DNA of 64,000 bases from Ianthella basta (lineage: Eukaryota; Porifera; Demospongiae; Verongiida; Ianthellidae): the NCBI GenBank assembly GCA_964019415.1, contig OZ025876.1:8060745-8124744 (forward strand). The letters are read 5' to 3'. The notes beneath the pieces are model-generated. The model did no database searches. It had not been told where the DNA came from and worked only from the letters and a program-made list of their open reading frames with translations. Position numbers and translations under genes: made by a program. Positions 37,671 through 64,000 of the stretch are shown here, piece after piece (position 1 is the first letter of the stretch; each line of letters opens with the position of its first letter).

Positions 37671-40600
37671 ATGTCTGGAGTGAGGAAGACTCGGCCTGAG
37701 AGCCGAACCAAGGAGGAACTGAAGAGAGAACTGAAAAGGTGGGGTGTGGATTTTCACTACCAAGCTACCAAGGACGAGCTGGTGAGACTGTACCGCGAGC
37801 ATCAGAAGGTCGCACGGTCAGCAGTGGAACTGTCTTCGGACGAGGAAGGTTCTCGCAGTCCGGCCCGTCGCCGGAAGGTAAGGCCCGGAGAGCAGTGTGG
37901 GGCGTTCTTGATGGGAGAGAGGTAGGGCGCCCTTGGTAGCACGATGTTCTGTTTGCTATCGTTTCCAAGTCATGCTGTTCAATCGTCGCTGGCCAAGTGA
38001 GTCATTAGTGATGTTGTCGAAAGTTCACTCCTCTTAAAGCTGGGAATGCCAAGAGCACTAGCCACGCCCCTTTTGAGATGTTCTTGTGTTAGTGGGTGAG
38101 GCATTGGGTGCTGGCAGTGATACACTCCACCGCCTCCTGCAGCTGGCGCAGAAGGCTGCGACTGCCAATGCCGAACTGTTCCTCCCGGAGATCAAGCGAC
38201 TGAGTGACGCTGAGCTTGCTGCAGAGCTCAAGGCATATGGCTTCACTGGCCCAGTAGTTGCATCCACCCGCTCTGTTTATGAACGGAAACTGGCCACCTT
38301 CAAAGTAGAGGTGAGCCCTGAGTAGCATGCATGTGTGTGTGTGTGTGTGCGTGTGTGTGCGTGCGTGTGTGGGTGGGCGGGTGGGTATGCGTGTGTGTGT
38401 GTGGGTGGGTGGGTCCAACCAAGAGTAGATAAGAGATGAGAGTATGCAACCGCGTATCCCTGCGTGTATAACAGCATTTTTCGAAAATGACGTAGCAACA
38501 CGTCGCACGTGGGCATGGTAACGCTACTTAATATTCTGATGTAATGGATGAATACCATTAACTCGATTCTCCAGTCTGTACGTATTCAGCATCGATTGCG
38601 CAGCTCTCGGTTTGTTAGTTGGGAGTTTCAACGATGTCCAGGACCAGCTGGTTGATGCTGGTCTCTTCACTGGATAGATTGAGCCTAGAACTTAATGTGT
38701 AGCCACCGTGAAACTCGAAGGACAGCGCTGCGGAGCTGTGGATGGCAGCGCTGTGACCCAAATCCACGCTTGCTGTCCTGGTCCTTCCTCGCCGGCGCTG
38801 CAGAGGTGTCCTGGACATTGTTGCAACTCCTGACTAACAAACCAAAGGGCCCGCAATCGTTGCCGAGTACATACAGCCTGGCAGATCGAGTTAATAGTAT
38901 TCATGAATTACATCAGAATATTAAGTAGCGTTACCATGCCCACGTGTCACGTGTTGCTGCGTCATTTTAGAAAAATGCTGTTACGGGTGCGTATATGCGG
39001 TTGCACACTCTCATCTCTTATCTACTCTTGGTCCAACACATCCTGTCCTAGCTGATATTGATTGAACTGGTTGAGCCACTAGCCCAGGCGCACTGGTAGG
39101 TCATCCAGTGGCAAAGAGCACACCATGCATACAAGTGCAAGGATAATTTGAGTACAATGTGATGAGTGGATTGTAATGTTAACTAGTGTAATAAAATTTG
39201 CCTTCAAAAATTAAAGGGATTAAGGAATGGCCAGCAGAAAAGGCATAGGAACAAGCAACAGTAACTCAACATTGTGATGAACCATGTTTCTTTGGAGTTC
39301 ACTCTGCATTTCTAATTTCACTGTGTGCAGTTACACAGACCAAAGGCGTAGCTACTGTATGATTAACAACCTACTCCTATGCAGCTACGTACAAGGAAAT
39401 TAGGAATGCAGAGTGAACTCCACAGAAACGTGGTTCATCACAGTGTTGAGTTACTGTTGCTTGTTCCTATGCCTTTTGCTGGCTATTCCTAAATCCCTTC
39501 AACTTTTGAAGGAAAATTTTATTTTGCTAGTTTGTTCACTTTTTGCATATTCAAAGGACTATGGCTACATCAGATTAATACTGCGCTGACTAACATCTCA
39601 TCGGTGCAGAGCCTAGAGCAGAGGTATGCCACTGTAGAAGCCGTAATGGTTATGTATGTGAATGCAACAAAATGGCGGTATTGGGATATATTAATACACA
39701 TGGAAGACAAGCTTCATAATCGCTCCAATGCTGTTCTTATTGGATTGCCATCGGTGTTCAGATATTTGCCCTTTATGTCTACACGAATCTTCATACACGA
39801 GTTGGATCCATAGGTGCCCTGTGCCTCGTGCACTAGGAGGAATTTAGTGGGAAGAAGATATAGAAATAGCAAATGTGGTAACAACATCCTGTGGCTCTTT
39901 TCACTTGCATGAACTCCAGGCTGACTGAGGTACTGCCATTTTCAATACGTACGTTGAAAGAAGCCTATCTATGGTCTTCAGTTGTTTTTCACTTCTGTTC
40001 AGTTTCGCCAAAGCACACCAATGTGCAACTGTACAAACTAGTCTATAAAAATACCTTTAGAATTAAAAGGGATTTAGGAATGGCCAGCAGAAACACCATA
40101 GAAACAAGCAACAGTAACTCAACACCATGATAAACCACATTTTCGTGAAGTTTGCTCTGCATTCCTAATTTCCTTGTAGCCGTATGGACCAAAATGTCTA
40201 GCTAGCTAGTCCCATGTAGCTAGCTAGACGTTAAGGTTAAGTGTGCGCTTTGTGTACGCATGTATGTAGTCTTAATGAGGTCCACAGGTGCCCTGTGTCG
40301 TGCACAGGGTACAAGCAGCCTTTGATGCTTGTCTCCAACTTGCACTCCAGGCTGACTCTAGCTGCACTGCCAACTTCAATACATCAAATGAAGTCTATCC
40401 ATGGCCTTCAGTTGCTTTTTTGTGGTCGCCGTTTGGCTAGTTTCGCCGAAGCGTGTTAATACATTAAGATATGACTAGCCATTTTTATTGGGCACATTCC
40501 TAATTAGATGTCACAAGCGTGACGTCTGATAAACAGTTTTGATTAACTAATGAATGAACTATTATGAAAGAAAGCTACTGCTTGTGTTGGCTGCAGGATG

Positions 40601-41345
40601 CAAAGTCCTCCAAAGGCATTCACCAAAAGGAGGAGGTTGATTATGGTGACCTCTCTGACGACAGCGGGAGTGAGCAATCGAGTATTGGTGAGGATGCCAT
40701 ATATGAGGGCAGCAGAAGCACACCCAGTGTGCCCTTGGTGGCTCAGTACCCCAGTGTGTCCCCTCAGTGGCAGCAGCGTGCTGCTCAGCACAGGGAAGGG
40801 CAGCGGGTACCACCGAGACTTCCCAAGGAGGAGGCCGGTGCCCGTCAGAGGGTGCAGCAGCCTGTGACAGTGAGTGGGGGGGGGAGGGGGGGAGGCTCCA
40901 CAGAGTGGCTTAAGGGTGCATTGGAGCATTGGCCTTGTAAGCAGTGACTAGTGGACGGTTGGGTGTGGGGGGTGTAATGCGTGTGAGCGCTACTGCCCGC
41001 AGCACACGGTACCTTTCATGGGCACTGTGCCACGTACAGAGATAAAGAAGGTTCTCAATTTGTGAATAGAGTTTGGCTTAGGGGGATACTTTCATAACAT
41101 GGCTACTGCACACAGCACCACACACGTTGACACTACTTCCCCTGCAGGGTCTGGAGAGGCGGCCAAGGCCTGTTGCTTCCCGCCCCCGTCCACCGTCCAG
41201 CGAGTCCTCCCCAGGGTGGTGCAGCTGTCTCTTGCAGGTGTTCCTCATCATTGTGGCCCTCCTGCTCACAGTCCTAGCCCTCACCTACCTCATCACTGGA
41301 CAGGCCATCCCTGATGGGATTGCAGGCCTCTTGACTGGAAAGTAG
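37671..41345 (+). CDS. LAP2/thymopoietin-like inner nuclear membrane LEM protein
   Basis: Exons: 37671-37877, about 38101-38310, 40597-40869 and about 41148-41345. The N-terminus holds a SAP-like 'LEM-like' helix pair (RTKEELKRELKRWGVDF ... KDELVRLYREHQ) followed by an acidic-Ser stretch (SSDEEGSRSP). Next is a true LEM domain (LSDAELAAELKAYGFTGPVV-ASTRSVYERKL), which in this family binds the BAF chromatin protein. After a Ser/Pro/Gln-rich linker comes one hydrophobic segment near the C-terminus (VFLIIVALLLTVLALTYLI) and a short tail, so it is tail-anchored, presumably in the inner nuclear membrane. The order LEM-like, LEM, linker, membrane anchor is that of vertebrate LAP2 (TMPO). The acceptor of exon 2 is uncertain by a few codons. 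A 2.3-kb intron is filled with foldback elements. Confidence 0.82.
38330..38410. repeat. (GT)n/GGGT microsatellite in LAP2-like intron
   Basis: GT repeats with GC and GGGT interruptions abut the left end of the foldback element that starts near 38418. Confidence 0.85.
38418..39032. mobile_element. Foldback/MITE-like element with inverted arms of about 230 bp
   Basis: The left arm starts ACCAAGAGTAGATAAGAGAT and the right arm ends with its reverse complement near 39032. Pairing continues inward, with about 85-90% identity by eye, through the GTTTGTTAG blocks (38609 and 38845), leaving a loop of about 150 bp. The loop and arms have no transposase frame. Non-autonomous DNA element is the likely class. 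No clear target duplication could be fixed. Confidence 0.8.
39181..39532. mobile_element. Second MITE-like palindromic element
   Basis: Arms of about 140 bp (39181-39320 and 39398-39532) are inverted copies: AACTAG...AATAAAATTT at the left and AAATTTTATT...CTAGTT at the right, with shared blocks GGAATGGCCAGCAG, CATAGGAACAAGCAACAGTA and GAGTTCACTCTGCA. It is a different sequence from the element at 38418. Confidence 0.83.
39812..40025. repeat. Diverged duplicate segment, copy 1
   Basis: Shares blocks GGTGCCCTGTG, ACTCCAGGCTGACT, CTTCAGTTG and AGTTTCGCC(A/G)AAGC with 40285-40460 in the same order. This suggests an older duplicated or inserted sequence of about 180-210 bp. No protein was recognised. 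Confidence 0.65.
40045..40175. mobile_element. Solo arm related to the 39181 element
   Basis: GGATTTAGGAATGGCCAGCA, then a CATAGAAACAAGCAACAGTA block and TGCTCTGCATTCCTAATTTC repeat the arm of the 39181-39532 element with several differences. No opposite arm follows, so it is a partial or decayed copy. Confidence 0.72.
40285..40460. repeat. Diverged duplicate segment, copy 2
   Basis: Direct-orientation partner of 39812-40025 in the same intron; the shared blocks keep their order but spacing differs by small indels. Confidence 0.65.
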
Positions 41346-41642: not shown

Positions 41643-43054
41643 CTACTTGGACACCTCCAGCTTGGCCTTCTCTCGCAGAGTTGGCTCATTCATTTTGTAC
41701 AGCTCATCCAGGAGGGCAGTGCGCAGTGTGCCAGGGTTTTGACAGGCTGCTGCGTTATCCACTGCCACTGCAAATAGTGCTGCCCCATGGCTAGCATGCT
41801 CCAGTGTGACGTCATCCCCCGTCTCCCTCACCACTCCCACCACCGCTGCAATGACTGCTGCTGACACCTGGGCAATGCTTGCTAGCAGCTCCATGCCCAT
41901 CGTGGGGTTGCCTACCTCAACACTGCCCTCACCGCTTGTGACCAAGCTGAGCTCATGCACGTGCACCAGAGACTTGGAGCGGGCTGCAAGGGACTTTGTC
42001 AGCTCCAATGTCTCAGCCAAGGGCATCTCCAGCTTAGTCCCTTCCCGGTACTGGTAGGAGGCCAGTTTGGGTGTGGGAGAGCGGGTCACAACCCTCTGCA
42101 GGGGGGGGGGGGGGGAGCACAGTGAACACCCCCACTACTCATTCAGCAGCAGCAGCACTTACCGCCTGGGGTGACTTGGAGCGAGATCGGATGTGCCCAG
42201 CAGCCGGCTTGAGGCATGGAGCTGGGGATTTGACCCTTGTTGACTGCTCTACAGCCATTCCTGGGTGAGCACAGGAAACAGTAACACAAGCCCTACCGAA
42301 ACAGGCACTCTGACAATCTACACCGTTGAGTATTTCACACCATGCCGCCTACATGCCTATACCAGGTCATGGCATTCCAGAGCACTGCCGTGTTAATTGT
42401 CAACACACACAAACCGTCCATGCGTGTATAGTATGCATGCCTCAGAGATGCCAACCTGCTCCAATGATGGCCTTGGACAGCGCCACGAGGTCAGGTATCC
42501 TTCCAGTGATTACGGTCGGCTTGCACAGGTTCACGAGCTTCTGAGTCAACGCGCACCTCTTCTCCGACGCAGCGACTTTGCTAGTGCACAAAACCAGTCC
42601 AGGCGATGATCGCGCCAACTCCAGCGCCGTGATCAGCGATCGAATGAGATCTTTGGCCGCTGCGCTGTCCAACAGCACCGCCATGCAGCCCTCCAAGTCA
42701 GACTGGACGTCATCGGGGTCTGCAGGAGGGAATGCCGCTGTGACGCGCCACGCACCCACCCCGGCTCCTCACCACTCCAAAGGGTTAACAAACTAACCTA
42801 GCCACACATCACCTTGCGACTCGTACTCGATGAACAATACAGAGAGTTAGGTGTAGCATTGAGCTAAGCGATGGGCAAAATTAGGTGACGTGTAAGAATG
42901 GCATCGACCTACCTTCAGCGAACACAGGTCGCGCTCCTATTGCGCACAAACTACTCGCCACGAAGTCCTGCGCTGCTCGAGGCAGGATACACAGCACACG
43001 CGGGCGGGTCACTTTGAGCAGCACTATCTCTCCCCACTCCTCGTCCTCAGCCAT
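41643..43054 (-). CDS. Degenerate hydroxyethylthiazole kinase (ThiM)-like protein
   Basis: Four exons (43054-42913, 42719-42456, 42260-42163, 42095-41643) give about 318 residues. The fold order of ThiM, which phosphorylates the thiazole precursor of thiamine, can be followed: an N-terminal helix-strand ending ASSLCAIGARPVFAEDPDDV (ThiM: AN-LLA-GASPVMA-PEEV), EGCMAVLLDS, LELARSSPGLVLCTSKVAAS, KPTVITGRIPDLVAL, TLELTKSLAARS, LVTSGEGSVEVGNPTMGMELLASIAQV and NPGTLRTALLDELYKM. The catalytic and binding motifs are lost: DPVG reads CTSK, the RGN-SE motif reads TGRIPD, and the GTGC anion-hole/catalytic Cys region reads LLASIAQ. A basic RSRSKSPQ insert is encoded by its own exon. It is likely a pseudoenzyme or a protein with a new role. 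Divergent from RFT1 by 43 bp. Confidence 0.75.
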
Positions 43055-43097: not shown

Positions 43098-46000
43098 ATG
43101 GCCGACAAAAGCAAAGGGCAAGCGCAGTTGGATTCTGCGGCACGCGCTGCGACGTACAACGTGGCTCTGCAGGTAGGCGGGGATGCCACGCGCGTGCCGT
43201 TGGTCTGTTGTGTGGGAGCTGTGCTCTGCCGCAGTCTGCACTAGGTACCCTTCCGTGATGGCCATTATTAACAGTTCATGCAACCAGCATGTCCGTCTGT
43301 CTGTTTGTGCAGGTTTGTCTTCGTATAAGTTCTTTTATTTTGAATGCCTTCGTGCTGAGACACATCACAGGAGAGCTCCTGGGAGTAGTCAACATGAGGT
43401 GGGTGTGGTGTTGAGCCCCCCCCCCCCCCCCCCCCCCCACATGCCACCCCTGTCCCACTACAGACTCACCCTACTCTACGACACACTACTGTTTGTGTCA
43501 AGTGAAGCACTGCGGAAGGCATGCCTCAGCCAGACGAAGCAGCCCTCCACATGGCAACAGACAGTCAACCTCACTTGGTGCAGGTCAGTCAGGTGATGCT
43601 CCTCCCTCTCTCCTCCCCTCCCCATCCCTCCCTCTCCCCTCCCCTCCCCCCCCCAACCCCTCCCTTTCCCAGTGTCCCGATATGTGTGGTGGCCTCCATA
43701 CTGCTGTGCACCCTCTGGCTGTCCCCCCTGCTGGAGCAGCCCAACGTGCAGTGGGACCCGACAGCCGTAGTCATTTTTGCACTCTGTGCCCTCCTGGAGT
43801 TGCTGGCAGAACCTCTTTGGGTCCTCGCACAAGCCCACCACCACACTTCACTGAGGGTGTGTGCACTGACTCTGTGTGTGTCGGGGGGGGGGGGGGGGGG
43901 GGGGGGGCTGGTGGTGAATCCCACTCCCTCCTGTACAGGTGATGGCCAAGGGAGCAGGACAGCTGCTGAAGGTTGTGCTGGTGGTCCTTGGCACTGCAAC
44001 ATGGCCCCAGCTGGGTCTGCTGGCATTCTGTGCAGGACAGGTGGGTTGGATGCACCCTAGTCTTGCTCCTAGACCTTCCACTAGATGCACTCAGCATTGC
44101 CTGCCTTGGCCTCTCAGCTGGCACACTACTGTCTCTCCAGGTTGCCTCCTCCGTGGTGTATGTGCTTGTGTATTATGTGTATTTCTGGAGGGTAATGACT
44201 CGCAGAGAAGCTGCCAAAGACCTCCCTGTTACCTCCCTCCGAGGCATGCTGCCACGACTGGCAGAGCAGGTAAGTCCTAGGGGCTCTCCCTTGGGCACCA
44301 CATCTGAGATGCTGTCTGTTGTTTGTCTTAGGACTCCTTCAGCCAAGTGCAGGTGGGTCTGGGATGGAGCTTCTTCAAGCAGTCCTTCCTCAAGCAGCTG
44401 CTGACAGATGGTTAGCCGCCACACCATGCATATGCCACACCCTTGCTGCTATCCCCTCCCCCCTCCCCTCCCCCTTCCTCGCTGCAGGAGAACGCTATGT
44501 GATGACACTCTTTGGAGTGCTTTCATTTGCCCAACAAGGTTAACTCTACAGGGGGCGGAGCCTGGTATTGCTCATCCCCTTTTCAAGGGGTGTGGTCTGC
44601 TACTGCTCCTCCCCCTCCTCTGCAGGCGTGTACGATGTTGTGAACAACCTCAGCTCACTGGTTGCACGGTTCATCTTCCAGCCCATTGAAGAGAGCTTCT
44701 ATGTCTTCTTTGCTCGCACGTTACTCCGGGGAGAGCCGGCCTCGCGGCAGCCTGCAGAGTCTCTCGATGTTGCCGTGACAACTCTGGCTAGACTGCTGAA
44801 GTTGGTGGTTGTGATATCTCTCACAATCCTTGTCTTTGGCTACTCCTACTCGCATGTGGCACTGCGTGTCTACGGTGGTGCACTCCTGGCGGACAGCGAG
44901 GGTGAGCTAGGCAGCCCTCCCCTGTGGTAGCGCCAGAGTACAGCATTGTGCACCTCCTCACTCTAGGACCCACCCTGATGCGCTTCTTCTGTGCATACGT
45001 TCCCCTGCTGGCACTGAATGGGATAACAGAGTGTTTCTTCTTTGCCCTCATGAGCCAAGCAGAAGTGGATCGGTCAGTTAATTCCACCGGCTACAGCAAG
45101 TGACCAATGTTGCACGTCTGCTTACAGCCCCCCTCCACTGTCCACCTGTAGGTACAACCGGAAACTGCTAGCATTCTCTGCTGTCTTCCTTTGTTCTGCA
45201 CTCCTGCTCACACGGGGCTTTGGCAGCATTGGATTTGTCCTGGCCAACTGTGTTAATATGGCCGTCAGAATCTGGCAGAGGTCAGCTGCTGTCCATAATA
45301 GCAACAGCTGTGAGGTGTGCCTGCAGTGATGGTGAGGTGTGCCTGCAGTGTTGGTGAGATGTGCCTGCAGTGATGGTGAGGTGTGCCTGCAGTGTTGGTG
45401 AGGTGTGCCTGCAGTGTTGGTGAGGTGTGCCTGCAGTGATGGTGAGGTGTGCCTGCAGTGATGGTGAGGTGTGCCTGCAGTGTTGGTGAGGTGTGCCTGC
45501 AGTGATGGTGAGGTGTGCTTGCAGTGTTGGTGAGGTGTGCCTGCAGTGATGGTGAGGTGTGCCATACCCTAAGTGAGATGCTCCTTTTCTCTCCCTTTGG
45601 GCAGTTGCCTGTTTATCCAGACTTTCTTTGCGAACACAAATCTCCATCCCTTCTCCTCCGCCGTGCCTGCCCGCTCTCTCCTGGCAGTGTTGGTTGGTTG
45701 TGCTCTCATCACTGCTACCTCTGAGGTGAGTGTGTGTGTGTGAGGTGAGTGTGTGTGTGAGGTGAGTGCATGTGTGAGGTGAGTGTGTGTGAGGTGAGTG
45801 TGTGTGTGAGGTGAGTGTGTGTGAGGTGTGTGTGAGGTGAGTGTGTGTGTGTGTGAGGTGAGTGTGTGTGTGAAGTGAGTGTGTGTGAGGTGAGTGTGTG
45901 AGGTGAGTGCATGTGTGAGGTGTGTGTGAGGTGAGTGTGTGTGTGAGGTGAGTGTGAGGTGAGTGCATGTGTGAGGTGAGTGTGTGTGAGGTGAGTGTGT

Positions 46001-46394
46001 GTGAGGTGTGTGTGTGTGAGGTGTGTGTGTGAGGTGAGTGTGTGTGAGGTGAGTGCATGTGTGAGGTGAGTGTGTGTGTGTGAGGTGAGTGCATGTGTGT
46101 GAGGTGAGTGTGTGTGTGTGAGGTGAGTGCATGTGTGTGAGGTGAGTGTGTGTGCAGTTCAGAGCCTTTACTGCTTCTGTTTCTGACCTGTGGCAGGCCC
46201 TGGTGTATGACCGCACTGCACTTCATGTGTGGCATGCGCTGGGACATGTGCTAGTTGGGGCTTGCTGCATGGTTGCACTGCTGGTTGCCATGGCAATAGC
46301 AGAAGAGGACCTTTGCTACTTCCTTGTGGAGCGACTGCCCTCACGTCTCCAGCCCCTCCCACTTGCCCTCCTCCACAGACTCCATTCTCACTAA
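43098..46394 (+). CDS. RFT1: RFT1 homologue, ER multipass protein of N-glycan assembly
   Basis: RFT1 is required for lipid-linked oligosaccharide (Man5GlcNAc2-PP-dolichol) use in the ER. It has a MOP/flippase fold. About a dozen exons are joined from 43098-43172, 43313-43400 and about 43463-43581 through to about 46197-46394. Diagnostic stretches: [134 protein letters not shown] and [14 protein letters not shown]. Around 12 hydrophobic segments are visible. Introns include a G homopolymer (about 43885-43906) and two minisatellites. Confidence 0.95.
43418..43439. repeat. C homopolymer in RFT1 intron
   Basis: About 21 consecutive C residues in the short intron before the exon beginning near 43463. 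Similar C or G runs occur at 22974, 25036, 27810, 43885, 54377 and 60890. Confidence 0.9.
45310..45562. repeat. 22-bp minisatellite in RFT1 intron
   Basis: About 11 copies of GGTGAGGTGTGCCTGCAGTG plus two bases, alternating GTGATG and GTGTTG. Each copy contains both a GGTGAG donor-like and a CTGCAG acceptor-like string. Confidence 0.93.
45725..46155. repeat. GTGAGGTGAGTGTGTG array in RFT1 intron
   Basis: About 430 bp of GTGAGGTGAGTGTGTGT variants following the exon that ends near 45724. It contains dozens of GGTGAGTG donor-consensus strings. Confidence 0.92.
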
Positions 46395-46633: not shown

Positions 46634-49600
46634 TCACTGCCAGGTGAGGACACGCCCTTCTGCACCAGCTGACATGAGGAAGGAGCCGTCCTGGGCAAAG
46701 ACCACCACCTGTACGCGGTCTGCGTGGCCCTTCAGCTCATCCACCTAATTAGCGGAGGAGGAGGTACACAGGCAATGGTTACTTACTAGCATCCAAAATT
46801 AATAATGAAAGTGAGGCGCACGTACTTGGCCAGTGGTGATATTCATGAGCTTAATGCTGCTGTCGTCACTTGCCATAGCAACCACCTCACCTGCACAAGT
46901 TCAAGATGTGAACAAGCCCTGGCTCACATCTCTGCTCCCCCCTCCCCCCCCCCCCCTCCCCCGCTTACCACTGGGATCGAACTGGACTGAGTTGAGTGAG
47001 TGTGGCCCGAGATCTTGGACCAGAAGAGACTTGTTGCCACGGATGTCCCAGAGGAAGAGGTGGCCAAAGCAGTCACAGGAAGCCAACACGTCACCCTGCA
47101 GGGGGGAGGGGGGAGGGGGGAGGGTTAGGGTGGGACTCTGTGGAGGAGGGGAGGGGCCTTGGGTGTGCCTTGACAAACTAATTCCCACCTTGAGTGTGGG
47201 CGAGGTGCTATTGCAGGAGTGGGCGTGGCCAAAGTATGTCTGCACACACAGGCCCTGTGGCAGGAGAGAGGTAGCCAGTGACAGTGTGTTGAGCTAGTGG
47301 CATGCCCAGAGCTCACTGATCTGGCGTCCCAGAGGGATACAGTCTTGTCAGCCGAGCATGTACTGAGGAGGTTGGAGTAGGCCAAGAAGCGGACACTGTT
47401 GACAGAGTCAGCATGGCCCCTGAGGGTCAGACGGCAGACTCCCCTGGCACCAGAAAGGAAAGCACCACCATTGAGTGAACTTCACACAATGTCAGTCCAG
47501 AAGGCCACTCCCTCCTCCCACCTTGTTGCGTCCCAGATCTTGGTGGTATGGTCCAGAGAGCTGGTGGCAAGGAACTCCCCTCCAGAGTGCCAGCTGCAGT
47601 CCCACACTGAATGAGACAAGAATTGCTGTCTCACTGCAACCCTACCCAGTGGTCCACCTGCCCCTTTAACACCCACCAGGCTGCTGGTGATCCATGAGTG
47701 TTGCCACACACTTGCCCTCTCTGAATCGCCACAGTTTAGCCGAGCCATCCCCAGAGGCACTGGCCAACACACTCCCACTGTGCAGCAACAGATAGATATC
47801 CCTAATCCCTGCCTACAGACCCTTAACCCCTGCCCACAGACCCTTAACCCCTGCCTACAGACCCTTAACCCCTGCCTACAGACCCTTAACCCCTGCCCAC
47901 AGACCCTTAACCCCTGCCCACAGACCCTTAACCCCTGCCTACAGACCCTTAACCCCTGTCCACAGACCCTTAACCCCTGCCCACAGACCCTTAACCCCTG
48001 CCCACAGACCCTTAACCCCTGCCTACAGACCCTTAACCCCTGCCCACAGACCCTTAACCCCTGCCTACAGACCCTTAACCCTTGCCCACAGACCCTTAAC
48101 CCCTGCCCATAGACCCTTAACCCCTGTCCACAGACCCTTAACCCCTGTCCACAGACCCTTAACCCCTGCCCACAGACCCTTAACCCCTGCCCACAGACCC
48201 TTAACCCCTGCCCACAGACCCTTAACCCCTGTCCACAGACCCTTAACCCCTGCCCACAGACCCCTAACCCCTGCCCATAGACCCTTAACCCCTGCCCACA
48301 GACCCCTTAACCCCTGCCCACAGACCCCTAACCCCTAACACGGAGCCCATCACTCACTCGGGACTGATGTCCACTCCGCCCACCCAGTCCTTGTGACCAC
48401 ACCCACTCATCAGAATCTCTCCCCTGGAGCAAGTGAGGGTCAAAGTACCATGCAGTCAGAGATCAGAGGTCAGAGTCCCTCACTTGGGTAGGCTCCACAT
48501 CCTCCACTGGTGGTCATCACTGCCTGTCACAAAAGCTGCCTTGCGCGGATGCAGGCAAAGACTGGATGGCAGACAGAGTAAGTAGTGCCATATGGCTGTG
48601 TCACATGACTGTCATGTGACTCACCCAGTAACGGCGTATTCATGGACTGGCATCTCTCGTGCCTTGCCAAAGCCGCCTTCCTTGGTCAGGTGGGCGCACT
48701 GCGGTGCAGACAGGGCTTCGTACGGGTTGGCCAGGTCCACTGGAAGAGACGGGACCTGCACACACCGTGCACAGCAGTAGGAAGACAGACAGACAGACAG
48801 ACACACAGAATGAACGAGCACGCACACACACACACACACAATCACTTCAGACAACAACCTTGGTGCTTGCAGTCATTTCAGTAGTCAGCTTTCCTCCCGC
48901 ACCCCTGGACTCAGGGGGTTGCCGTGATGGCTCCCCCTTGGCTGGCATGACCTGGTTCTTCAGGCAGCCAACTTGCTCTGCTGTTGGCTCCTGTTCCTGG
49001 TTGGGCGTTGGCTCCCGTTCCTGGTTGGGCGTTGGCTCCTGTTCCTGGTCGGGCGTTGGCTCCTGTTCCTGGTCGGGTGCTGGCTCCTTTTCTGCTTGTA
49101 CTGTTGCTTGGGCAGTGGCCTGCACAGGGGAGGGGTGGCCGGGTAGCCAGCAGCCTCAGGGCAGCAGGCGGTCCCATCCCACCTTGCTCTCTGAGGTGCC
49201 GGGCTGCACTGGCCTCCTCTTCTTTGCCCCAATCTGTAGCAGCGTCTTCTCCCGCAGAGTACCCTGCAAGAGCTGACACTCAATCACAGACCCCGCCTCC
49301 CCCCAGACTTCATCTACATACGTACTTCATATCTGGCCTTCATTTTCACCAAGGCATCCTCTCGCTGACCGAGGTGCTCCTGTAGCCGTCTCAGGTCACC
49401 CACCAGCCGCTCCTTCTCCTGCAGTACCCGGCGATGGTTCATGCGGTGGTAGTCCCGCTCCTTCTTCAGGCGCACAAACCGGTCCTTGGCCTGTCTGCAG
49501 TAGAGCAGGCACTTCACATAGACAGGAACACCATAGCAGCCACTGCACAGACATACTTGGTGGCCATCTTGAGTCTGTCTGCCTCTTCCAGCAGGAGCTC

Positions 49601-54926: not shown

Positions 54927-57118
54927 CACATGCGCACCTCCAGATGTATGCAGCACTGTCTCCACCTTAGTGCATTCCTTTGCTGGTGCAAATTGCTGTT
55001 GTCCTCCACATGTGCTGTCTCCTCCACATGTGCCCTCTCCTCCACATGTGCTGTCTCCTCCACATGTGCTGTCTCCTCCACATGTGCTGTCTCCTCCACA
55101 TGTGCCGTCTCCTCCACATGTGCCGTCTCCTCCACATGTGCCGTCTCCTCCACATGTGCCGTCTCCTCCACATGTGCTGTCTCCTCCACATGTGCCCTCT
55201 CCTCCACATGTGCCGTCTCCTCCACATGTGCCGTCTCCTCCACATGTGCCGTCTCCTCCACATGTGCCGTCTCCTCCACATGTGCCGTCTCCTCCACATG
55301 TGCCGTCTCCTCCACATGTGCCGTCTCCTCCACATGTGCCGTCTCCTCCACATGTGCCGTCTCCTCCACATGTGCCGTCTCCTCCACATGTGCCGTCTCC
55401 TCCACATGTGCCGTCTCCTCCACATGTGCCGTCTCCTCCACATGTGCCGTCTCCTCCACATGTGCCCTCTCCTCCACATGTGCCGTCTCCTCCACATGTG
55501 CCCTCTCCTCCACATGTGCTGTCTCCTCCACATGTGCCCTCTCCTCCACATGTGCCGTCTCCTCCACATGTGCCGTCTCCTCCACATGTGCCGTCTCCTC
55601 CACATGTGCCGTCTCCTCCACATGTGCCGTCTCCTCCACATGTGCCCTCTCCTCCACATGTGCCCTCTCCTCCACATGTGCCCTCTCCTCCACATGTGCC
55701 GTCTCCTCCACATGTGCCGTCTCCTCCACATGTGCCGTCTCCTCCACATGTGCCGTCTCCTCCACATGTGCCGTCTCCTCCACATGTGCCGTCTCCTCCA
55801 TATGTGCCCTCTCCTCCACATGTGCCCTCTCCTCCACATGTGCCCTCTCCTCCACATGTGCCGTCTCCTCCACATGTGCCGTCTCCTCCACATGTGCTGT
55901 CTCCTCCACATGTGCCGTCTCCTCCACATGTGCCCTCTCCTCCACATGTGCCGCCTCCTCCACATGTGCCCTCTCCTCCACATGTGCCCTCTCCTCCACA
56001 TGTGCCGTCTCCTCCACATGTGCTGTCTCCTCCACATGTGCCCTCTCCTCCACATGTGCTGTCTCCTCCACATGTGCCGTCTCCACCACATGTGCCCTCT
56101 CCTCCACATGTGCCCTCTCCTCCACATGTGCCCTCTCCTCCACATGTGCCGTCTCCTCCACATGTGCCCTCTCCTCCACATGTGCCCTCTCCTCCACATG
56201 TGCCCTCTCCTCCACATGTGCCGTCTCCTCCACATGTGCCGTCTCCTCCACATGTGCCGTCTCCTCCACATGTGCCCTCTCCTCCACATGTGCCGTCTCC
56301 TCCACATGTGCTGTCTCCTCCACATGTGCTGTCTCCTCCACATGTGCCCTCTCCTCCACATGTGCTGTCTCCTCCACATGTGCCCTCTCCTCCACATGTG
56401 CTGTCTCCTCCACATGTGCCGTCTCCTCCACATGTGCCCTCTCCTCCACATGTGCCGTCTCCTCCACATGTGCCGTCTCCTCCACATGTGCCCTCTCCTC
56501 CACATGTGCCGTCTCCTCCACATGTGCCCTCTCCTCCACATGTGCCCTCTCCTCCACATGTGCCCTCTCCTCCACATGTGCCGTCTCCTCCACATGTGCC
56601 CTCTCCTCCACATGTGCCCTCTCCTCCACATGTGCTGTCTCCTCCACATGTGCCGTCTCCTCCACATGTGCCCTCTCCTCCACATGTGCTGTCTCCTCCA
56701 CATGTGCTGTCTCCTCCACATGTGCCCTCTCCTCCACATGTGCCGTCTCCTCCACATGTGTCGTCTCCTCCACATGTGCCCTCTCCTCCACATGTGCTGT
56801 CTCCTCCACATGTGCTGTCTCCTCCACATGTGCCCTCTCCTCCACATGTGCCGCCTCCTCCACATGTGTCGTCTCCTCCACATGTGCCGTCTCCTCCACA
56901 TGTGCTGTCTCCTCCACATGTGCTGTCTCCTCCACATGTGCCGTCTCCTCCACATGTGCCCTCTCCTCCACATGTGCTGTCTCCTCCACATGTGCTGTCT
57001 CCTCCACATGTGCTGTCTCCTCCACATGTGCTGTCTCCTCCACATGTGCTGTTGTCCTCTCGCATGTACAGGGGTGGCCGAGAGAGTTGTCTACCCAGTT
57101 GCATTATCCAAGGTCTGA
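53361..57118 (+). CDS. CTSO: Cathepsin O-like papain-family cysteine protease
   Basis: A lysosomal C1A peptidase. The signal peptide is MAVLNFWHFFVVTFCFSRVC, followed by an I29-type prodomain (VRFTKDFNKVYDNEEELHVR ... VNSFSDLTQDEF). Exons: 53361-53643, 53726-53819, 53901-53957, 54018-54177, 54248-54327, about 54397-54524, about 54600-54673, about 54731-54822 and 57072-57118. The catalytic Cys is in NQGQCGSCWAFSVVEA (the Trp codon is split by an intron), His in LDHAVVAVGYNLTG and Asn in WIIRNTWGTGWG. The block SWQDYIGGVIQHHCSS is distinctive for cathepsin O, as is the short end ENMCG-VAE. All three catalytic residues are present. The last intron (about 2.25 kb) is mostly an 18-bp minisatellite. 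Confidence 0.92.
55005..57056. repeat. 18-bp minisatellite, about 114 copies, in last CTSO intron
   Basis: The unit is TCCTCCACATGTGCCGTC with mainly CCG/CCC/CTG exchange at one triplet and a few point variants (e.g. CCACCA at about 56095, TATGTG at 55801). Every unit has the palindrome CACATGTG, an E-box. Since 18 is a multiple of 3 and the unit has no stop, all six frames stay open for about 2 kb and produce the window's longest but meaningless ORFs. Confidence 0.98.
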
Positions 57119-63102: not shown

Positions 63103-63229
63103 CATGATATTGTAGAGGCTCACAGTTGCGTTGATAATACAATGATACGAGATTCTTGAGCAAGACACAACTGATGATGATAAATCAATCAAATGCAGGA
63201 CGTTTCGACCCGAAGGTCTTTGTCAACTC

Positions 63230-64000
63230 ATCCTGTAGGGGATCCAGTGCATCCTGTAGTGGGTCCAGGCCATCCCAAAAGGGGTCCAGTGCAACCTATA
63301 GGGGGTCCACTGCATCCTATTGGGGGTCCAGTACATGTCGTAGGGGGTCCAGTGCAACCTGTAGTGGGTCCAGTGCATCCTTTAGGGGGTCCAGTGCATC
63401 TTGTAGGGGGTACAGTGCAATCCTGTAGGGGGTTCAGTGCAATCCTGTAGGGTGTCCAGTGCATCTTGGTGGGGTTTAGTGCAATCCTCTAGGGGATCCA
63501 GTGCATCTTGTAGGGGATCCAGTGTATCCTGTAGGGGGTCCAGTGCATCTTGTAGGGGGTCCAGTGCAACCCTGTAGTGGGTCCAGTGCATCTTGTAGGG
63601 GGTCCAGTGCATCTTGTAGGGGGTCCAGTGCATCTTGTAGGGGGTCCAGTGCAATCCTGTAGGGGATCCAGTGCATTTTGTAGGGGATCCAGTGTATCCT
63701 GTAGGGGGTCCAGTGCATCTTTTAGGGGGTCCGGTGCATTTTGTTGGAGGTCCAGTGCATCTTGTAGGAGGTCCAGTGCATCCTATAAGGGGTCCTGTTC
63801 AACCTATATGTGGTCCTGTGCGTTCTATAGGGGATACAGTGAATCCTGTAGGGAGTCCAGTGCATCTTGTAGGGGGTCCAGTGCATCTTGTAGGGAGTCC
63901 AGTGTATCCCATAAGGGGTCCAGTGCATTCCATAAGGGGTTTAGTGCAACCTATAGGGGGTCCAGTGCGTTTTATAGGGGGTCCAGTGCATCTCGTAGGG
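63230..64000. repeat. 21-bp satellite (GGGGGTCCAGTGCATCTTGT unit) running off the window
   Basis: About 36 copies of a 21-bp unit with point variants and some 22-bp units, continuing to the last base. Copies are more diverged (CC/CA/TA exchanges) than those of the CTSO array, so it is older or less homogenised. It is related to the 57255 array. Confidence 0.95.

Follow-up and report, generated by a model that had tools for sequence, protein, structure and literature searches.

The window analyzed here, a 64,000-nucleotide stretch of the Ianthella basta genome (contig OZ025876.1), carries on its minus strand (43054-41643) a four-exon gene related to hydroxyethylthiazole kinase (ThiM). We read it, with a probability of about 0.7, as a retained pseudoenzyme whose product would be a non-catalytic trimeric adaptor with Ser-Pro/Arg-Ser loops, perhaps co-expressed with the neighboring gene RFT1. 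A non-enzymatic job is probable because the residues of the chemistry are lost while most of those that hold the ring of three subunits together are kept. The original prediction had proposed that the gene persists as a pseudoenzyme in a new role; retention is now supported indirectly by a neutral simulation, the kept core and the interface, and the new role is our inference.

Relationship to ThiM and loss of the active site

Judged on its sequence, the four-exon gene is a true relative of ThiM, in agreement with the original prediction. The Pfam HK family (PF02110) matches the protein with 42.4 bits (E 7e-11; gathering cut-off 27) and the NCBIfam ThiM models with E values of 1.2e-18 (PRK09355) and 3.3e-12. 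The NCBIfam equivalog cut-offs are missed (67.5 vs 180 bits for NF006830 and 46.5 vs 256.4 bits for TIGR00694), and by its residues the protein is not classed as a hydroxyethylthiazole kinase. All eight distinct sequences found in the Protein Data Bank (PDB) at E values up to 1 are ThiM, five of them with E <1e-4, and the top match is Staphylococcus aureus ThiM (E 1.7e-11). A profile of 83 ThiMs (80 fetched loci plus 3 PDB sequences) aligned with the protein in two stretches, one per half, and scored 51.8 bits; 715 of 1000 shuffles were also reported, the best with 7.6 bits. The fetched loci, which rank as the top 80 among 566 confirmed, are Bacillota throughout by title, with 30 of the 80 from Staphylococcus. 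Identity to the reference ThiM is 23%.

Structure prediction is consistent with a ribokinase-like fold. The model of exon 2 (87 residues) alternates helices and strands with a predicted local distance difference test (pLDDT) score of 81.7. With the exon-4 model, which spans half the domain and had ThiM sequences in its input alignment, all 26 Foldseek matches at E <1 were ThiM chains, and no top structural match fell outside the ThiM fold.

Roles of active-site residues were taken from S. aureus ThiM, as given in its description (PMC4785402). Three alignments map the 21 positions alike; the one exception is T160, aligned with V in two of them and with a gap in the third. The Mg ligands D88, K115 and E120 (K or R at 115) are C, T and D in the sponge protein, and the phosphoryl-transfer residues N117, T160 and C190 are R, V (or the gap) and A. 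The within-monomer thiazole contacts N19, V21, G61, V90, T186, G187 and C190 are occupied by P, A, S, S, A, Q and A. Among the contacts provided by the neighboring subunit, P37, A38 and M39, now P, V and F, only P37 is kept, and the V at A38 is also found in 31 of the 83 ThiMs. Identity is thus 0/12 at the within-monomer Mg, ATP and thiazole positions and 1/15 (P37) over all active-site positions. The predicted motif replacements are all present: DPV has become CTS, K-G-N-x-x-E has become T-G-R-x-x-D, and T186, G187 and C190 have become A, Q and A. The loss at 0/12 positions differs from the overall identity with p 0.044. Across ThiM columns that are at least 95% invariant, 16 of 51 are kept and 35 changed (1 of 12 in the active site vs 15 of 39 elsewhere, p 0.075), and the protein keeps 2 of the 17 invariant polar columns of the 83-sequence alignment.

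Three other explanations bear on these replacements. An active enzyme with altered chemistry (a kinase or transferase of ribokinase fold, acting on a new substrate through a rebuilt active site) would fit the presence of P37, G116 and an acidic D at E120; it is improbable given that two of the three Mg ligands, D88 and K115, are C and T, that N117, which contacts the gamma-phosphate, is R, and that the proton-relay C190 is A (roles from PMC4785402). A small-molecule sensor, binding a metabolite in the interface pocket without turnover, seems hardly likely either: two residues of the pocket have gained hydrophobicity (F for M39 and P for N19) and the interface residues next to it are kept, yet of the five residues whose hydrogen bonds to thiazole are listed in that paper (M39, P37, G61, T186 and C190) only P37 survives, and direct evidence for another ligand is lacking. 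Lastly, an error in the gene model or assembly might hide a true protein whose intact motifs come from other exons, since the exon structure was read from the DNA and includes one weak donor. We rejected this reading as very improbable, because every lost motif is internal to an exon, and on either side of the motif that exon still aligns with ThiM, with no gap longer than a few residues.

Trimer interface, core and basic insert

Trimer-interface residues were taken from the same S. aureus ThiM paper (PMC4785402). Here E45, S95, R98, P234, T236 and D243 correspond to D, S, R, P, T and D, so that five of the six are identical and one is a conservative change; D in place of E45 is seen in 5 of the 83 ThiMs. 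Conservation of the interface differs from that of the active site (Fisher p 0.0017) and from the overall identity (binomial p 0.003). The hydrophobic core is also kept, in 66 of 78 columns with a set of 30 ThiMs and in 63 of 72 in the 83-sequence alignment. Because alignment itself attracts matches, 200 shuffles were re-aligned to the 30 ThiMs. They gave 0-4 interface matches (mean 1.3) vs 5 in the real protein, at most 61 core matches vs 66 of 78, and on average 3.4 active-site matches vs 1, with one or none in 23 of the 200. The kept core and interface therefore exceed the control. From these residues, the protein probably forms a homotrimer.

ThiM residues 126-133 correspond to sponge residues 130-187, which leaves about 50 extra residues. 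This insert is rich in S, A, K, R and P and includes KSP, RSRSKSP and RSPTP. The insert had been assigned to an exon of its own; exon 3 does encode most of it, and the remainder is encoded at the start of exon 4 (about 18 residues). Its modelled part is predicted to be disordered, and its Ser-Pro and Arg-Ser sites suggest that it may be phosphorylated. In S. aureus ThiM, loop 126-140 is described as changeable, a slightly altered fold being mentioned together with the crystal forms (PMC4785402).

A working mode can be proposed from these features. The gene would derive from a single-domain (bacterial-type) hydroxyethylthiazole kinase whose ribokinase-like domain would still fold and probably still forms a homotrimer like ThiM, with active sites at the subunit interfaces where Mg-ATP and thiazole could presumably no longer be used for phosphoryl transfer. 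An insertion of about 50 basic residues, carrying Ser-Pro and Arg-Ser sites, would have arisen where ThiM has loop 126-140. The most likely mode would be a non-catalytic trimeric adaptor on which partner proteins meet three phosphorylatable loops, and the gene might be co-expressed with RFT1, a housekeeping gene; the adaptor role of the trimer is our best guess. More tentative, and possible rather than probable, is the fuller history in which a thiamine-salvage kinase was turned into a non-catalytic trimeric scaffold in an animal lineage, keeping its ring contacts, erasing its active sites and converting the loop after the second Mg motif into a phosphorylatable Arg-Ser/Ser-Pro arm, to give a three-armed regulated adaptor.

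Open frame, selection and copy number

The four exons join in frame into 318 codons and a stop, as read from the DNA, and the three introns (193, 195 and 67 nt) are all GT-AG; the intact frame is as the original prediction had described it. We simulated neutral decay of the coding sequence in 300 runs, with point changes only and indels not counted. Runs without a stop made up 28% at 90% identity and 7% at 80%, and there were none among the 300 at 60%, at 40% or at 25%; the real gene stands at 23%. Much of the divergence probably post-dates the loss of catalysis, because 35 of the 51 columns constant in active ThiMs have changed, and an open frame over such divergence suggests that selection holds the gene. 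The evidence comes from one genome and is indirect, with the decay simulated on the present coding sequence.

Several points weigh against a retained pseudoenzyme. The interface positions S95, T236 and D243 are variable among ThiMs themselves, which lowered our odds, and the low active-site count alone does not exceed the shuffle control. The single copy found, the lost catalytic residues and the weak exon 2 donor (GTTGGC) would also suit a decaying ThiM copy, a unitary pseudogene whose frame is still open by chance. We consider such a pseudogene unlikely, as frame and splice sites are kept over four exons, core and interface are kept, and no simulated run stayed open at 60% identity or below. 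A retained pseudoenzyme is the reading we prefer.

We searched the whole genome (209 Mb, 96 contigs) for further copies. With the sponge protein as query, the matches were the four exons of the gene itself plus a single place at a chance-like E of 1.71, hence one copy found, and Escherichia coli ThiM gave one chance-like place (E 2.57) without recovering the copy in the window. An intact second ThiM was set aside on these results. A diverged, exon-split paralogue may exist elsewhere, because the E. coli query missed the window copy. An exon-wise genome search, which missed the HK copy itself, gave no match over cut-off for thiamine monophosphate (TMP) synthase (ThiE, TMP-TENI profile), the enzyme that would use the product of ThiM, or for ThiD/PdxK-type kinases (Phos_pyr_kin), so that absence of the thiamine pathway is weakly supported. 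Thiamine pyrophosphokinase was seen as part of one exon at 29.1 bits, just below the cut-off of 30.7. Thi4 gave 27 matches, 3 over cut-off, all limited to about the first (N-terminal) quarter of the profile; we read them as generic nucleotide-binding fragments and did not take them as Thi4. The protein had no match in a viral contig collection; in a plasmid collection the matches were a thiM of Segatella (E 3e-3) and two further places at E 0.3. The mitochondrial contig (21,233 bp) uses the table 4 code and carries cox1, 20 tRNAs called over 19,990 scanned bases and an open frame that we take, by eye, to be atp9. Mitochondrial DNA with atp9 and many tRNAs is indicative of a sponge. The ThiM-like gene, with its introns, is located on an animal chromosome.

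Locus and relation to known systems

The neighbor is RFT1, as predicted (Pfam Rft-1, PF04506, E 1.3e-130), head to head with the ThiM-like gene, the two start codons being separated by 43 bp. This stretch is a candidate shared promoter, and on its minus strand TGACGTAA resembles a CRE/ATF site. On the other side, a small plus-strand gene lies tail to tail with the ThiM-like gene, 297 bp apart; its last two exons, those read, matched nothing in Pfam at E up to 0.1. The positions of these features are collected below.

Table 1. Features of the ThiM-like gene and its neighbors, in window coordinates.
Feature	Position	Strand	Remarks
Exon 1, ThiM-like gene	42913..43054	-	start codon 43054-43052; positions N19 (P), V21 (A), P37 (P, kept), M39 (F)
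Exon 2, ThiM-like gene	42456..42719	-	87 in-frame residues
Exon 3, ThiM-like gene	42163..42260	-	most of the basic Ser-Pro/Arg-Ser-rich insert (KSP, RSRSKSP)
Exon 4, ThiM-like gene	41643..42095	-	end of insert (first ~18 residues, SPTP) and C-terminal half of ThiM domain; includes stop codon
CTSK, residues 92-95	42577..42588	-	replaces ThiM DPV with Mg ligand D88 and V90
TGRIPD, residues 119-124	42490..42507	-	replaces ThiM K/R115-G-N117-x-x-E120
Residues 243-248	41856..41873	-	A, Q, A at ThiM T186, G187, catalytic C190
Interface residues S99 (S95) and R102 (R98), residues 99-102	42556..42567	-	kept
Interface residue D51 (E45), partner of S99/R102	42709-42711	-	E to D
Interface residues P289 (P234), T291 (T236), D298 (D243), residues 289-298	41706..41735	-	kept
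Stretch between divergent start codons	43055..43097	.	43 bp; candidate shared promoter
RFT1, divergent neighbor	43098..46394	+	13 exons joined by eye; end from stop-to-stop frame
Small plus-strand gene, last two exons	40597-41345	+	acidic, Ser/Pro-rich stretch and C-terminal hydrophobic segment

The window (positions 1-64000) has 49 tandem-repeat rows above a score of 150, overlapping rows representing one array. Examples are 22-bp units at 45310-45563, within RFT1, and 21-bp units at 47803-48336 and 63229-64000. An 18-bp minisatellite at 55002-57049 (113.8 copies, 95% matches) leaves all six frames open for >700 codons, and may be a coding repeat or open by chance.

Compared with ThiM enzymes (S. 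aureus 5CGA, Bacillus subtilis 1EKK, Klebsiella pneumoniae 6JYY and Pyrococcus horikoshii 3HPD), the sponge protein shares the domain order throughout, the hydrophobic core, five of six interface residues and the predicted fold of its C-terminal half. The differences are that none of the 12 Mg, ATP and thiazole positions within the monomer is retained, that the loop carries the insert of about 50 residues, and that the gene has introns and no thiamine operon. Candida glabrata THI6 (3NL2 and others), a bifunctional fusion of TMP synthase and hydroxyethylthiazole kinase, is unlike the single-domain sponge protein and was absent among the phmmer matches in the PDB at E up to 1. That most animals lack the gene has to be qualified: thiM of a cyst nematode (GROS_g07354), likewise a PF02110 gene in an animal genome, is listed as horizontally acquired along with thiD, thiE, thi4 and tenA (PMC4901422). 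In the sponge genome such a set was not detected, at weak sensitivity.

We found no report of an animal or sponge ThiM pseudoenzyme in the literature searched by titles and abstract openings, which does not deny its existence elsewhere. Known pseudoenzymes are mostly protein kinases, phosphatases and proteases, and animals generally do not synthesize thiamine. If our reading is true, a vitamin-salvage kinase whose chemistry is gone and whose oligomer interface remains would offer a clean natural experiment on the use of a fold after catalysis, and animals would have disposed of the thiamine pathway partly by reuse and not solely by loss.
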